Positions 27,090 through 32,819 of a stretch of DNA of 46,645 bases are shown here, in pieces. This stretch comes from Candidatus Gastranaerophilales bacterium (GTDB lineage Bacteria > Cyanobacteriota > Vampirovibrionia > Gastranaerophilales > Gastranaerophilaceae). The notes below the pieces were generated by a model. That model was given only the letters and a program-made list of their open reading frames with translations. It made no database searches and was not told the origin of the DNA. The position numbers and the translations under genes are program-made. Where the stretch lies: assembly GCA_944324365.1 (NCBI GenBank), contig CALUWA010000012.1:1-46645 (forward strand). Reading direction: 5' to 3'. The number at the start of each line of letters is the position of its first letter. The first letter of the stretch is position 1.

Positions 27090-28130
27090 TTAACCGAATG
27101 TTTTGAATGAACTTTCGGTATTTTTTTCTATTACCTTTGATACTGCGTCAACTTCGTTTGAAATTGCATCTTGTTCAGTATCAAGTTGTTTTAGTCTTAA
27201 TTCTAAGTTTTTATCTTCTGCCTGAATAATTTCAATTTTAGAGTTAATATCTTCAATTGCTTGATCATATAATTGTTTTTGATATTCGTATTCATTCATT
27301 GCATCGTTATATGCATCCTGATCTGTTGTTGTTTCTGTTGTAAGAGCATATTCTGTGTAGATTGGATTTCCTGCTTCATCTAATACAGGATCGCCGTTTG
27401 CATCAACATCCGGGATGCTGATTGAAATAAATCTGCCAGAAGAATCTTTTTCAACTTTACAGTGTTCAATTGCAAGATGTTCTTCAATCTTTTGTTCGCT
27501 GCCTATTGTATAGCATTTGATGTTTGATAAAGAGTTCCCGGTTTTGTCATCATATTGTGCAGTGTCCAAGTCATCTTTGCTGTAAAAATATGGAACTTCT
27601 GCACCGGTTGTAGTGTTTGTTACATATCTTATAACCCAATCGGTTTTGCCGTATTTTTGTTCAAGCAAAGTTGCCCAGGCTTGTTCTTCTCTTTGTCTGT
27701 CAGCTTGTTTGTCTGCATCTTCAATATTCGGATCTAGTGTTCCCAATTCTCTTAAATCTGTAGAACCAATTGAGTAGGTATAATCAGGTGCTGTACCTGT
27801 TCTAGTTACAATACTTGTAGAAGCTGCAACTGCGGAGTAGTCATCCTGCCATTTTGATAAATAGCTTATAGTGTATTGTCCGTTTGGTTCTGCAATTAAT
27901 GCAGTTACAGTATTTGTTAGTGCACCATCATCAAATGAATAAACTGTTTTTGTATAGTTGTCAACTGATGGAGGGGTTGGAACAGTCATACCGAGAAGGT
28001 CGTTGTAGTAGTTGGCTGACTGATTAGACAACACGGTACGTTGTTGGTTAATCTGTTGGCCTTCGAACTCAACGTTATTTTTTCGAGCTGTCAAACCCAA
28101 AAATCTAGCTTGTGAAGCAGCCATACCCAT
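27090..28130 (-). CDS. Lineage-specific M-G-x-A-S-Q-A family protein, member 1
   Basis: The product shares its first 35 residues (MGMAASQARFLGLTARK...) and its last 40 (KQLDTEQDAISNEVDAVSKVIEKN...) with proteins at 31197-32819 and 43825-45588, while the middle differs in sequence and length. Both ends are predicted amphipathic helices or coiled coils; the middle is polar, rich in T, D, Y and N, like a surface domain. No signal peptide is present. An ATG four codons upstream (28142) is in frame, but comparison with member 3, where the matching ATG is out of frame, supports the start at 28130. The leader word GAAAGGAATG-ATAC is shared with member 3. It ends with a good terminator. Function is unknown. 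Confidence 0.75.
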   Translation of the reverse strand: MGMAASQARFLGLTARKNNVEFEGQQINQQRTVLSNQSANYYNDLLGMTVPTPPSVDNYTKTVYSFDDGALTNTVTALIAEPNGQYTISYLSKWQDDYSAVAASTSIVTRTGTAPDYTYSIGSTDLRELGTLDPNIEDADKQADRQREEQAWATLLEQKYGKTDWVIRYVTNTTTGAEVPYFYSKDDLDTAQYDDKTGNSLSNIKCYTIGSEQKIEEHLAIEHCKVEKDSSGRFISISIPDVDANGDPVLDEAGNPIYTEYALTTETTTDQDAYNDAMNEYEYQKQLYDQAIEDINSKIEIIQAEDKNLELRLKQLDTEQDAISNEVDAVSKVIEKNTESSFKTFG

Positions 28131-28279
28131 AACGGTATCCATTCCTTTCTTGTTCTTAGTACATTCGTACTCATGTTATCGACTGCCATGGCTGAAAACT
28201 TTAATTTTTGGTTTCGTTTTGTTAAGAAATTGTAACATATTCTGTATATATTTTATACATATAAGAGTTGTAACGCTTG

Positions 28280-28789
28280 CTATGACTGTTTCCTGAACCT
28301 ATCAGAGATGTAGCTTAATATAGCTCCACCAATCTCTTCATTTGGGTCGAAAACCATGTCAGGACATGGGTTTAGGGAATTTTGTATGAGCATTTTTACT
28401 AAAGGTCCGAATGCATCCGGAATTTGGGTCTTTCTGTAAATTCCGGCAAGAAAAGTCTGAATATTAGGAGAATTTGTATTATTAAACCGTGAAAGCGCCG
28501 GATACATTTTGTCTACTCCTTTTGTTCCGTTTTCAATCATTCTGTCTAATATGTATAATGTTTCTGTTATTTGGGCTTCGTTATATGAATGCAGCAAAAT
28601 TTCATTGAGATACGGCAGAGCCTGTTCTTTTTGCTTTACAAAATAATCTACTCTATTTGGGTCAAATATAGCGTAATTCCGCCCTTGTACCGGCATTTGC
28701 ACGGAATTTCCGGCAGGCATGCTGACTGTGGTTCTATTACTGCCGAATGTGTTTCTGTTATATCTGATAGTATTAATTGGTGTAATCAT
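28280..28789 (-). CDS. Unknown alpha-helical protein, third gene of riboswitch operon
   Basis: This 169-residue protein has a polar N-terminus (MITPINTIRYNRNTFG...) and then regularly spaced helices (EQALPYLNEILLHS, ITETLYILDRMIENG, IQTFLAGIYRKTQ, AFGPLVKMLIQNS) that resemble HEAT/ARM-type repeats, often used for protein contacts. No enzyme motif, signal peptide or membrane segment is visible. GAGGG lies close to the ATG, and the start is 11 bp after the stop of the membrane protein gene at 28801, so it is probably the last gene of the operon that begins at 30995. Confidence 0.6.
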   Translation of the reverse strand: MITPINTIRYNRNTFGSNRTTVSMPAGNSVQMPVQGRNYAIFDPNRVDYFVKQKEQALPYLNEILLHSYNEAQITETLYILDRMIENGTKGVDKMYPALSRFNNTNSPNIQTFLAGIYRKTQIPDAFGPLVKMLIQNSLNPCPDMVFDPNEEIGGAILSYISDRFRKQS

Positions 28790-28800
28790 AATCCCTCATT

Positions 28801-30300
28801 TTATGAGTATACAAACGGCGGGCCGTTTTTGATTTCCAGCAGAATGTTTTCCGCCATTGTCTTAAGCTGTTCTTTTGGTTTCCCTTCGTCGACCTGTTTA
28901 TAAAATTCATCCACAAGCGGCTGTATTGCGGCATCTTTTTTAGATTTAAAATTGCGTAATTCTGTTGATACCAGGCGTTTTTGAAGATCAACCTCAGTTT
29001 GTGCATTAAGTTTTTTGACCTGAACCTCTTTAATTGCATCTCCTATTAATTTCCCGCCGTAGCTTACGCCGGCAAGTGCGGTCATTCCGATAAATAGCTG
29101 CTGGAATTGCGGGTTTTCAGGCTCTATTAAGAAGTTATAGAAAAATGCCCTGTAATCATCAACAAAAGATGACAATGACGGTTTCTGGGTTCCGTCCCCG
29201 CCTATATTAGGATTTACCTTGACTGTTGATGTTTCGATTTTTTGCACTGTTTTATTGATGAATTCTTCTTTTTCTGCTGCTTCCCAAGGGGTCTTGTTCA
29301 CAATTTCTTCTACAACTTCTTTTTTTGCATTAATAAATTGTAGCCCGTGTTCAAGATATTCTTTTATAAAATCTGTGTCTTTACCGGATTGTGCAATCAT
29401 TTCCAGGTCTTTTTTTGTTCTGTTGACAAATTTTGAAACCTCTTTTCCGCCTAATCGTAAGTTTTTCAAAGAATACAAAGATAGTCCGATTATTGAGGCG
29501 ATAGTTGCTCCGCCGAGCATAAAATACTGTAAGCCGCTTTTATGTGTTTTGTGGTCGGATTTCTCGGCTTTTTGCCCGAAGGATAATTCTTTTGCTGACT
29601 TGAACATTCCAAATGGCTGCAAGTGAGGTTCATTATCTTCAAGATATCTGGAAAACATCTTTGTTTTTTCGGATAAAGAATTTCTTATAATTTGTATTTT
29701 TCCGCTGAAAGATTGTGTTTCTATATCAATAAGCTGTTCCTGTAGGTTTTTTTGAATATCTGCTTCTTTTTTCTTTACCCAAACTTCTTTAAATCCGTCA
29801 AAGAAGGTTTTACCCATAAAAGCTGCAGCAGAAAGCGTTAATACCCCTAGCCCTGCTCTGATTGTTTTTCTGTTAGGATTCTGAACCATTTGTACAAGTG
29901 CCTGGTCGTTTTCATCATTTATAGAAATATTTCTGGTAAATGATGTTATCCATTTTTCGCGGGCTATTTCGTTTGTAATTTTTGCATTTCGCTTTACAAA
30001 CCAGGATAAACCGGCCATCAGACCCATTACGCCAACGGCAATGCCGCTTATCGGAAGCAGACTTTTTTCAGGTGTGGTTTGGTTTTCTCTTAATTGTTTA
30101 GGAAGTTTAGCTGTTTCTGATATTATTAACGAGTCTTTTGTATCATTCAGGTCAAACGCGAATGGTTCAGGTTCATTATCGCGAATGAAGTTATTTACAA
30201 TTACACCTTCCCTGGTTTTTGAGTTATTTCTTCTTTGTACTCCGGTTAAATTCCTTTGCCGGCGTTGAATTTCTCCATCATTGAACAGAGTCATTGTCAT
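28801..30300 (-). CDS. Unknown membrane protein with internal duplication, second gene of riboswitch operon
   Basis: This 499-residue protein has four predicted membrane segments (about 81-102, 148-168, 258-277, 402-420) and long charged helices. Residues about 141-198 and 396-451 look duplicated: each starts with N-P, continues with a membrane helix ending in G-K-x-(F/I)-x-D-x-(F/I)-K-E-V-x-V-K-K, and then D-(I/L)-Q-K-x-L and a conserved E...F. So the protein seems to be built from two copies of a two-helix module. The ATG overlaps the TGA of the gene at 30297 (ATGA), implying coupled translation. No family is recognised. Confidence 0.65.
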   Translation of the reverse strand: MTMTLFNDGEIQRRQRNLTGVQRRNNSKTREGVIVNNFIRDNEPEPFAFDLNDTKDSLIISETAKLPKQLRENQTTPEKSLLPISGIAVGVMGLMAGLSWFVKRNAKITNEIAREKWITSFTRNISINDENDQALVQMVQNPNRKTIRAGLGVLTLSAAAFMGKTFFDGFKEVWVKKKEADIQKNLQEQLIDIETQSFSGKIQIIRNSLSEKTKMFSRYLEDNEPHLQPFGMFKSAKELSFGQKAEKSDHKTHKSGLQYFMLGGATIASIIGLSLYSLKNLRLGGKEVSKFVNRTKKDLEMIAQSGKDTDFIKEYLEHGLQFINAKKEVVEEIVNKTPWEAAEKEEFINKTVQKIETSTVKVNPNIGGDGTQKPSLSSFVDDYRAFFYNFLIEPENPQFQQLFIGMTALAGVSYGGKLIGDAIKEVQVKKLNAQTEVDLQKRLVSTELRNFKSKKDAAIQPLVDEFYKQVDEGKPKEQLKTMAENILLEIKNGPPFVYS

Positions 30301-30995
30301 TTCTGTAATTCCTTTTGTGTTTCTTCTTCACCTGTGATTTTCTTGTATAAATCGTGGATGAATGTTCTTAGTTTAAATGCTTTTTTTGTTTCATCTACCT
30401 GCTTTTCATTATTATCCGTGTTTTCGGGATTAAATATGTTAAATAATGATTTGATTTTCTTTTTAAATTCGTTAAGTGGTTCCGATATTTTTTTTGCTAT
30501 TGCTGTCTTGATTTCGCCGTATACAGCTGCAACTTTATCGGAAATATCCGCAAATTTTTGCCCGATTGTTTGCGTGAAATTTTGTATTGCTGCCGGAAGA
30601 TTTTTTATTAAATTTAACGTTCCGCCGACTATTGTGTTCAGTACAAAATTTACCGGTTTTGCAATTGCCTGCGGCATAATGTTTGATATTGCATTTGTCA
30701 AAACTGCAATTCTTTGAGATGCATTCATCATTGCATTCTGAAATGCGATTGCTTGGCGTGCAAAGTTTTGGGCATCTTGTTCACGTGCAATTTTGGCATT
30801 TTGCTGCGCTTTTAGAAATGCTCCTATTGCCGCACATTCGTTCCAGCTCATTTCGCCCGGCTTCGCGGAAAAATCGGCTTTCTTCATTCCGCCTCCTCCG
30901 CCCATTCCGTTACATATCGGGCATGCTCCAAGCGGAAGCCCATGAGGACATGTTCCGGCTTTTACTATATTTGGCTGTACTGTTGCTAACTGCAA
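30297..30995 (-). CDS. Unknown protein with N-terminal C-x-H / C-x-x-C motif, first gene of riboswitch operon
   Basis: This 232-residue protein carries TCPHGLPLGACPICNGMGGGGG at residues 15-36. The C-x-H and C-x-x-C pairs could bind one zinc ion, and the glycine run would act as a linker. The rest is helical, with an amphipathic segment (VNFVLNTIVGGTLNLIKNL) and a K/E-rich C-terminus. No ATG or GTG precedes the motif; a TTG at 30993-30995 with AGAGGA nine bases upstream is the probable start. That ribosome site lies in the 3' arm of the terminator hairpin of the preceding riboswitch-like leader, so transcription and translation could both be gated. Function is unknown. Confidence 0.6.
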   Translation of the reverse strand: MQLATVQPNIVKAGTCPHGLPLGACPICNGMGGGGGMKKADFSAKPGEMSWNECAAIGAFLKAQQNAKIAREQDAQNFARQAIAFQNAMMNASQRIAVLTNAISNIMPQAIAKPVNFVLNTIVGGTLNLIKNLPAAIQNFTQTIGQKFADISDKVAAVYGEIKTAIAKKISEPLNEFKKKIKSLFNIFNPENTDNNEKQVDETKKAFKLRTFIHDLYKKITGEEETQKELQK

Positions 30996-30997
30996 TT

Positions 30998-31027
30998 AAA
31001 AAATCCTCTCAATACTTCTTAAGAGGA
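30998..31027 (-). terminator. Regulatory terminator downstream of the riboswitch-like leader
   Basis: On the minus strand TCCTCT (31022-31027) pairs with AGAGGA (31004-31009) and is followed by six T residues. An alternative pairing of AGGA (31039-31042) with TCCT would disrupt it, giving an antiterminator. The 3' arm also holds the Shine-Dalgarno of the gene at 30995. Confidence 0.7.
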
Positions 31028-31034
31028 CATCTAT

Positions 31035-31144
31035 GAAATCCTAAAAACATTTCCAAATTGCACGTGGATAATGTTTTCAATTTCGAGCATTCCGGCTTTT
31101 ACGGTTGCGGCTACAGCCGGGGATATTCACCCCGTTTCCTCTTA
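31035..31144 (-). promoter_or_regulatory. Cobalamin riboswitch-like leader
   Basis: Read on the minus strand, the leader shows the ordered core of B12 riboswitches in compact form: GGAAACGGGGTGAATATCC (L5-type hairpin, 31118-31134), a P6-type hairpin GGC-TGTA-GCC (31109-31118), CGCAACCGTAA in place of the usual CGCNACUGU, then a B12-box-like AGCCGGAATGCTC (31085-31097), and finally a hairpin with arms AAAACATT/AATGTTTT (31044-31077) where P13 is expected. A loop-loop pairing between GAAU and AUUU is possible. Several core positions deviate, so it may be a variant or respond to a related corrinoid. It precedes a terminator and a three-gene operon of unknown proteins. Confidence 0.7.
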
Positions 31145-31150
31145 TCAGCT

Positions 31151-31179
31151 ATAGTATGATAACCAATATTCCAAGTCAA
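31151..31179 (-). promoter_or_regulatory. Promoter of the riboswitch operon
   Basis: TTGACT (31174-31179), a 17-base spacer and TACTAT (31151-31156) on the minus strand place transcription start near 31144, just before the riboswitch-like core. Confidence 0.75.
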
Positions 31180-31196: not shown

Positions 31197-32819
31197 TTAA
31201 GCTGAATACATTTTTAAGGTTCTATCCACATTCTTGTCGATTACTGATTTTACTGAATCATATTCGGACTGGAGTGCATCGTGTTCTGTGTCAAGTAAGG
31301 ATAAGATGTTATCGTAGTTTTTACCTTTTGCTTCAATAACTTTTTGGGCATTTTCATACTCAGCTTCGGCTTTTGCTTTTGTTTTTTCATTTGTTTCTTC
31401 CGAGATATCAAGGGCGCTGGTGTAAATAGTAGGTCTCCAGGTGGCATCTTCCAAACCGGTTCCTTCTTTGGTAGGGTCTGTAAATTCTACTTTTTCAAGC
31501 ATTATTGAGCCATGTTCAAGTGAATATTGGAGCCACTCTGCACTATTCATCAAGCCGTCTTCCAATATATCGTATTGACGACCCGGTGTTCTTCCTCCGA
31601 GGGATACAGGTGAATTGCTTCCTGATGTTGAGTCTGTTCTCTCTTGATTTTCTCCGTTCATTCTGTGCCATAGATTTACATACCATTGGGCTTTGTCACG
31701 GTCGCTGTATTCGTAGACTTTTTCTTCTATTGTTGCGGGAATATCCGGCATTTGCGGTTCTTCCCTATATTCATCAACGGCTTTTTGGTATGCATCATAA
31801 TCAATTTCGGTTTTTGTAACAGCCTGTTTTAAATCGTGTTCTACAAAATATAGGAATTTTGCCAGGTTTTGTTCTTTGGCCCGGCCGCCTGTCGCACTGC
31901 CGTCATAGTCATTATGAACTTCCCATAACAAATCAACTGCTCTTTGCCATAATGACATGTTCGGATCTGACACTGTGCCTCCGACAAGTTTTAATTCCGT
32001 TGTCCCGTTGTATTCAATTTCTTCATAGGCCATATTATCATATTCAACACCGTCAATAACTGCTGTTCCTTCAATAACATCTCCGGAACAGTGTCCTTCT
32101 TTAAGCATTTGTGTTATTTTTTCAAAATTTTCTACCCCATGTAATGCGGAGTTCCAATTCCAGCCTCCTGTCGTCACAATTGTGATTTCATGACCATCAG
32201 AGGTTTTATGAGTGCCCGGCCCGATTAAATCCGATAATACATGCATATAGCAGTTAAGTCCGTTCATCCCGTTACCAAAACAACCCCCGGAATTTCTTAC
32301 GGCGTTATAAATATCATTATTTACGTCAGGGACTTCCTTTGTATAATCTTCAATTTTTGGATAATTATCAACCCAATCCTGATGATCTTTTAACCATTTG
32401 TCATATTCGCCTTGATAAGCAGGATTTGTTACTGTAACTGTTTTTCCGGTGTCGATTTGTTTTACTCCGTATTTTTCCAGAAATTCATTTATATTATTAC
32501 TGCTTTCAAAATTTGCGGCATCAGTTTCTGACACAAGGATTTTTCCGCTGGAATTTATTAAACCGTATTGATTTTTTAGCGGCGCATATGTTGTCAGCTG
32601 ACTTCCTGTAAGAGCGGTATATGTTTGGTTGCCGTCAAGATCATATGTAAGATATGTTAAGTTTGTATCACGTAATGCGGCCAAATATCTTTCGTTTGCT
32701 TCATATGTCTGATTTGACAGCAAAGCCTTTTCCTGGGTTATCTCCTGTGAACGAAGTTCATTTGATGATAACCGGGAGGTTATACTAAGTAATTTCGCTT
32801 GTGATGCTGATAATCCCAT
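31197..32819 (-). CDS. Lineage-specific M-G-x-A-S-Q-A family protein, member 2
   Basis: This 540-residue family member starts MGLSASQAKLLSITSRLSS and ends with the shared helix LDTEHDALQSEYDSVKSVIDKN. The middle is longer than in member 1, with aromatic and acidic residues, a G/C/N-rich patch (NSGGCFGNGMNGLNCYMH) and a W-rich part, resembling an exposed domain. No signal peptide is visible. AAGGA lies seven to eight bases before the ATG. The leader differs from those of members 1 and 3. The gene has no clear terminator before the promoter of the next operon. Confidence 0.75.
   Translation of the reverse strand: MGLSASQAKLLSITSRLSSNELRSQEITQEKALLSNQTYEANERYLAALRDTNLTYLTYDLDGNQTYTALTGSQLTTYAPLKNQYGLINSSGKILVSETDAANFESSNNINEFLEKYGVKQIDTGKTVTVTNPAYQGEYDKWLKDHQDWVDNYPKIEDYTKEVPDVNNDIYNAVRNSGGCFGNGMNGLNCYMHVLSDLIGPGTHKTSDGHEITIVTTGGWNWNSALHGVENFEKITQMLKEGHCSGDVIEGTAVIDGVEYDNMAYEEIEYNGTTELKLVGGTVSDPNMSLWQRAVDLLWEVHNDYDGSATGGRAKEQNLAKFLYFVEHDLKQAVTKTEIDYDAYQKAVDEYREEPQMPDIPATIEEKVYEYSDRDKAQWYVNLWHRMNGENQERTDSTSGSNSPVSLGGRTPGRQYDILEDGLMNSAEWLQYSLEHGSIMLEKVEFTDPTKEGTGLEDATWRPTIYTSALDISEETNEKTKAKAEAEYENAQKVIEAKGKNYDNILSLLDTEHDALQSEYDSVKSVIDKNVDRTLKMYSA

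Follow-up and report, generated by a model that had tools for sequence, protein, structure and literature searches.

A putative B12-repressed AdoCbl-II riboswitch precedes a lineage-specific membrane operon, possibly for corrinoid acquisition, in Candidatus Gastranaerophilales

In the gut, B12 is a contested vitamin, and a common gut order, Ca. Gastranaerophilales, seems to need it without recognizable means of synthesizing or, mostly, of importing it. How these bacteria obtain B12 is the question raised by a locus on contig CALUWA010000012.1 (assembly GCA_944324365.1), where a leader resembling a cobalamin riboswitch precedes three genes (orf1, orf2, and orf3) on the minus strand. The 46,645-nucleotide stretch of this contig that was analyzed, here termed the window, derives from a genome that belongs to the order. 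Our analysis suggests that a B12-repressed OFF switch gates a lineage-specific membrane operon, that most likely serves in corrinoid acquisition, although we give this overall reading only about an even chance of being correct. The elements of the locus are as follows.

31151..31179, minus strand: sigma-70-like promoter (TTGACT-17 nt-TACTAT), 9 of 12 consensus matches, directly 5' of the aptamer
31137..31144, minus strand: UAAGAGGA 5' aptamer strand, which holds the P3 5' strand and the alternative antiterminator strand; perfect complement of 31027-31020
31085..31141, minus strand: AdoCbl-II cobalamin riboswitch aptamer (P3, P4/P5, P6), from RF01689 (42.1 bits) and covarying pairs in 62 leaders
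31035..31084, minus strand: P13-type hairpin with a conserved ACGUGC-like loop (putative L13 kissing partner of L5), from folding and the loop motif of relatives
30998..31028, minus strand: predicted intrinsic terminator with U-run, from folding; its 3' arm includes the Shine-Dalgarno sequence GAGAGGA (31010-31004)
30297..30995, minus strand: orf1, 232 aa, TTG start; N-terminal CPHG-x5-CPIC, invariant C54, helical remainder, one weak hydrophobic segment
28801..30300, minus strand: orf2, 499 aa, four predicted transmembrane segments; 4-nt overlap with orf1
28280..28789, minus strand: orf3, 169 aa, soluble; conserved core 'IQTFLAGIYRKxQxPDAFGPL'

A preliminary description of the locus had proposed a compact B12 riboswitch in the minus-strand leader, to be checked with covariance models. 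A search of the whole window against Rfam bears this out: the AdoCbl-II model (RF01689) matched 31141-31085(-) at 42.1 bits, above its curated gathering score of 36.5 (E = 7.9e-7), and this was the sole non-tRNA Rfam match within the window. The long cobalamin model (RF00174) had no match in the source genome, which rules out the long aptamer as the identity of the leader. The short layout of P3, P4/P5, and P6 followed by a P13-type hairpin is shared with the AdoCbl-II class, and the hairpin that had been anticipated after the aptamer was placed at 31084-31035(-). In the putative L5-L13 loop-loop pairing, only five of the six positions are complementary as judged by eye. Pairing is also maintained in related genomes, with 0-5 breaks per aptamer pair across 62 non-redundant leaders, compensatory changes in P3 and P4/P5, and an almost invariant P6. 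Assignment of the leader as a genuine member of the known AdoCbl-II class is thus well supported, and we infer that the leader RNA would bind cobalamin. In a close relative, an insertion close to P6 of the orf1 leader (L012:1614-1754) is accompanied by a score exceeding the cut-off of RF00174, the long model, such that the two Rfam models blur within the lineage.

For the regulatory platform downstream of the aptamer, leaders were compared from related genomes and from 80 records, the majority of which carry the name Ca. Gastranaerophilales or Melainabacteria. The order promoter, aptamer, hairpin, and GTCCTCT..AGAGGATTTTTTAATG is common to nearly all, with the last of these, in the terminator region, kept in most related leaders; a promoter of the same layout (TTGACA-17-TANNNT) can also be seen in related leaders. 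Neither the count of the promoter pattern in the window nor that of the terminator consensus exceeded shuffles, and support for both elements therefore comes from conservation. A terminator after the P13-type hairpin had been predicted and is upheld by a 10-bp stem (31028-31003(-)) with a U-run tail after it, the arms of which pair better within than between leaders (0 of 2,000 shuffles reached the observed value). Its 3' arm does include the Shine-Dalgarno sequence of the first gene, as previously noted, with GAGAGGA (31010-31004(-)) positioned 8 nt ahead of the TTG at 30995.

The antiterminator, which had been suggested as a possibility, fared less uniformly. Its complementary strand is present and conserved, with UAAGAGGA (31144-31137) being the exact complement of UCCUCUUA (31027-31020) in the terminator 5' arm, yielding an 8-bp antiterminator candidate. 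In folding, a transcript without the terminator 3' arm adopted the antiterminator, whereas the full leader adopted the terminator. However, covariation between AAGAGGA and the terminator 5' arm was weak (30 of 2,000 shuffles reached the observed value) because the strand is almost invariant. A single multi-strand compensatory case was recognized by eye in L039, where changes in both P3 strands are matched by changes in the terminator arm and the Shine-Dalgarno sequence (TAAGGA/TCCTTA/AAGGA). It follows from this anatomy that the compact platform could act both on termination and, through sequestration of the Shine-Dalgarno sequence, on initiation, making it a candidate for dual control.

These features suggest a switching mechanism in which the AdoCbl-II leader would presumably act as a B12-repressed OFF switch. 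When corrinoid is scarce, AAGAGGA in the 5' aptamer strand would pair with UCCUCUU to form the antiterminator, allowing orf1-orf2-orf3 to be transcribed with the Shine-Dalgarno sequence exposed. When corrinoid is bound, P3 would keep the GAG of the AAGAGGA strand and UCCUCUU would be set free, such that the terminator could form over the Shine-Dalgarno sequence, halting transcription and masking the start site. The product of the gated operon would then be a lineage-specific membrane assembly for corrinoid acquisition, either uptake itself or an uptake step.

The proteins offer few clues of their own. The first gene encodes, as described previously, a TTG-started protein (start at 30995) with a cysteine/histidine motif (C-P-H-G-x5-C-P-I-C), and the reported four-helix membrane protein corresponds to orf2 with its four hydrophobic segments. 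None of the three proteins had a relative in Pfam or NCBIfam, and neither searches against PHROGs and PDB sequences nor tblastn searches of orf1 against plasmids and of orf2 against phages returned anything convincing. The absence of plasmid and phage matches, together with an order-wide distribution, speaks against a mobile or phage origin. Weak, scattered Pfam matches (SesA, EzrA, apolipoprotein, and, for two members, Cob_adeno_trans at E = 0.004) appear to reflect helical character in general and were disregarded. For orf1 and orf2, AlphaFold gave models of low confidence (mean pLDDT of 53 and 60, respectively) that were too poor to interpret, and a Foldseek search with the orf2 model gave no fold match at E<=0.001. 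Screening of orf1-3 for the components of a BtuCDF-type importer identified no FecCD permease, ABC ATPase, or periplasmic binding protein domain. The literature searched, coverage of which was incomplete, yielded no description of the operon or its riboswitch. The operon is flanked by two members of a lineage-specific protein family beginning MG(L/M)(S/A)ASQA(K/R) (31197-32819 and 27090-28142 of the window), which occurs in several copies in many related loci and for which no known family reaches its cut-off. The 540-aa upstream gene and the 350-aa downstream gene were excluded as operon members, as they belong to this separate family.

Homologs of orf1 were identified in 167 of 191 family genomes and RF01689 matches in 174. 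In a sample of the phylum, orf1 was detected in 163 of 386 genomes, and all matches listed fall in the order Gastranaerophilales. An RF01689 match was located 52-226 nt upstream of orf1 in 112 of 150 copies among the matches listed; of the remaining 38 listed copies, 20 were checked for such a match in the region upstream, and all 20 had one. Across 97 genomes, orf1 was present in 83 of 89 that bear the riboswitch and in none of eight that do not (no phylogenetic correction), with genus g26 accounting for several of the joint absences. Gene absences rest on single profile searches, and most of the genomes compared are probably metagenome-assembled. The association of the riboswitch with orf1 is a lineage-wide rule, with near-universal linkage. 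Gene order is also stable, in that orf1-orf2 are kept in all 80 named loci and orf3 in 78, while downstream content varies. Three orf1 copies contain in-frame stops, two in G043:C4:288511-289182 and one each in G099:C7:22421-23065 and G164:C5:78759-79400; these are possibly decaying copies or assembly errors.

The other genes preceded by the same riboswitch class in the family provide context for the operon. Twenty loci were fetched for riboswitch matches that were not tied to a listed orf1. In approximately half, the riboswitch lies ahead of nrdDG. In five (L135, L139, L141, L145, and L148, from genera g18 and g38), it lies ahead of a TonB receptor-FecCD permease operon that, on contigs extending far enough, also comprises an ATPase and a periplasmic binding protein (btuB-btuC-btuD-btuF). 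Some of the others turned out to hold divergent orf1-3 behind the riboswitch, and L144 was not interpretable. Both nrdDG and btuBCDF are classical targets of B12-repressed riboswitches, which supports the designation of the leader as an OFF switch. In genus g18 (G064, G090, and G114), btuB-btuC is under riboswitch control and orf1 is missing, which gives the impression that one system has taken the place of the other. The source genome itself encodes a second AdoCbl-II element (C2:23248-23325; L002:1501-1578) ahead of NrdD/NrdG, which at 33.3 bits is below the Rfam cut-off. Ahead of the start, its leader lacks a terminator-like U-run and shows an ACCUC..AGGAGA arrangement, which by eye suggests translational control and a platform unlike that of the orf1 leader. 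Among the 80 named loci, nrdDG occurs within about 5 kb of the operon in eight and corrinoid iron-sulphur protein subunits occur directly upstream in five; in the latter (L052 and L054-L057), two CdhD/AcsC-type subunit genes precede the riboswitch.

We then considered the B12 economy of the lineage. NrdJ, the adenosylcobalamin-dependent ribonucleotide reductase, was identified above cut-off in 126 of 191 family genomes, including the source genome. Profiles for CbiC (corrin ring), CobS (nucleotide loop), the CbiQ-type ECF T-component, and the MetH reactivation domain gave matches in control genomes but none in 97 family genomes; FecCD (BtuC-type) permeases were found in 10 of the 97. The importer survey comprised FecCD and the ECF T-component, and the survey of B12 synthesis and use comprised CbiC, CobS, NrdJ, and the MetH reactivation domain. 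Within this scope, the lineage appears unable to make B12 and to be mostly without BtuCDF or ECF importers. Of the 68 NrdJ-encoding genomes among the 97, 60 encode orf1 without FecCD, four encode both, none encodes FecCD only, and four, including the 99% complete G089, encode neither. NrdJ was detected in 64 of 83 genomes with orf1 versus 4 of 14 without (p = 0.0006, no phylogenetic correction). Strict mutual exclusion of orf1-3 and BtuC-type permeases is refuted by several genomes that carry both (e.g., G049 and G184). The main text describing the first published Melainabacteria genomes reports pathways for B2, B3, B5, B7, B9, and K and is silent on B12; a Gram-negative envelope was inferred for these organisms (PMC3787301).

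What, then, does the operon do? We infer the function of its proteins from genomic context. The lineage apparently needs B12 but does not make it, known importers are mostly missing, and btuBCDF, where it exists, is under the same switch; taken together, these points favor corrinoid acquisition as the most likely function. In its most specific form, which we advance tentatively as somewhat short of an even proposition, orf1-3 would constitute a new kind of machinery for acquiring corrinoids, with no relation to BtuCDF, ECF, or BacA-like systems, repressed through AdoCbl-II and feeding NrdJ and other corrinoid enzymes across the order. Several observations weigh against uptake. The three proteins have neither an ATPase nor a beta-barrel and only four transmembrane segments, unlike known transporters; the structural models are of low confidence and orf2 lacks a fold match; and a Gram-negative envelope means that uptake through orf1-3 would still require an outer-membrane route. 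The four NrdJ genomes with neither orf1 nor FecCD, the co-occurrence of both systems in some genomes, and the 19 orf1 genomes in which NrdJ did not exceed its cut-off, coupled with the absence of the MetH reactivation domain throughout, point in the same direction.

The preliminary description had proposed that the operon encodes new members of the corrinoid response, and the near-universal riboswitch linkage, the nrdDG and btuBCDF co-targets, and the seeming inability of these bacteria to make B12 or, mostly, to import it by known routes support this. Of the two roles that it suggested, uptake appears to fit better and B12-independent replacement less well. In the latter case, orf1-3 would substitute or compensate for B12 rather than import it, being switched on together with nrdDG once B12 runs out. 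nrdDG, which encodes the class III ribonucleotide reductase, is the textbook B12-independent substitute, and its control by the same riboswitch class in the source genome and others, as well as its proximity to orf1 in some loci, are consistent with such a role. However, orf1-3 have no enzyme-like domain, orf2 is a predicted membrane protein, and the operon persists in genomes without NrdJ, the B12 enzyme for which nrdDG substitutes, making replacement unlikely.

It is also conceivable, if rather doubtful, that orf1-3 form an envelope, surface, or host-interaction structure for which B12 level is a cue to the gut environment, the link being purely regulatory. The lineage restriction of orf1, the adjoining lineage-specific 'MGxxASQAR' proteins, and the long helices beside transmembrane segments in the low-confidence orf2 model would accord with such a structure, but the other gene sets identified behind the riboswitch in the family are directly involved in B12 metabolism or uptake, and the riboswitch and orf1 are jointly absent in 8 of 97 genomes. 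That the RNA is no cobalamin sensor at all, through a coincidental aptamer match or a changed ligand, is highly improbable: the model is a short one, with the scores of many family members lying close to the RF01689 cut-off, yet the window match exceeds it, the pairs are conserved and covary in 62 leaders, and the same aptamer precedes nrdDG and btuB-C-D-F. Corrinoid acquisition, if true, would represent an undescribed way of obtaining B12 and would assign a role to proteins whose family has no Pfam, NCBIfam, or PDB relatives. By singling out one compact operon as the candidate, the riboswitch makes the question of how these bacteria get B12 directly testable.

Comparison with characterized systems delineates what would be new. 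The leader resembles other AdoCbl-II (RF01689) elements in its short aptamer and P13-type hairpin, and in the family this class precedes B12-related genes; it differs in a platform where the Shine-Dalgarno sequence serves as the terminator 3' arm and the aptamer's own 5' P3 strand as the candidate antiterminator, and in that the genes it regulates are undescribed. BtuB-BtuCDF operons of genera g18 and g38 share the riboswitch, the presumed OFF logic, and the physiological setting, whereas orf1-3 share no domain with a TonB receptor, FecCD permease, ATPase, or periplasmic binding protein. A precedent for B12 uptake unrelated to BtuCD-type systems, which Mycobacterium tuberculosis lacks, is its transporter Rv1819c (PMC3603451); this is a fused ABC exporter-type protein, whereas orf1-3 have no ABC domain. 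Closest at hand is the second AdoCbl-II element of the source genome, a presumably B12-repressed alternative to NrdJ, although it precedes genes for enzymes rather than membrane proteins and its leader has no comparable terminator. Near another riboswitch-nrdDG locus, that of G078, a tmRNA gene was identified (L133:2208-2604; RF00023, 114 bits).
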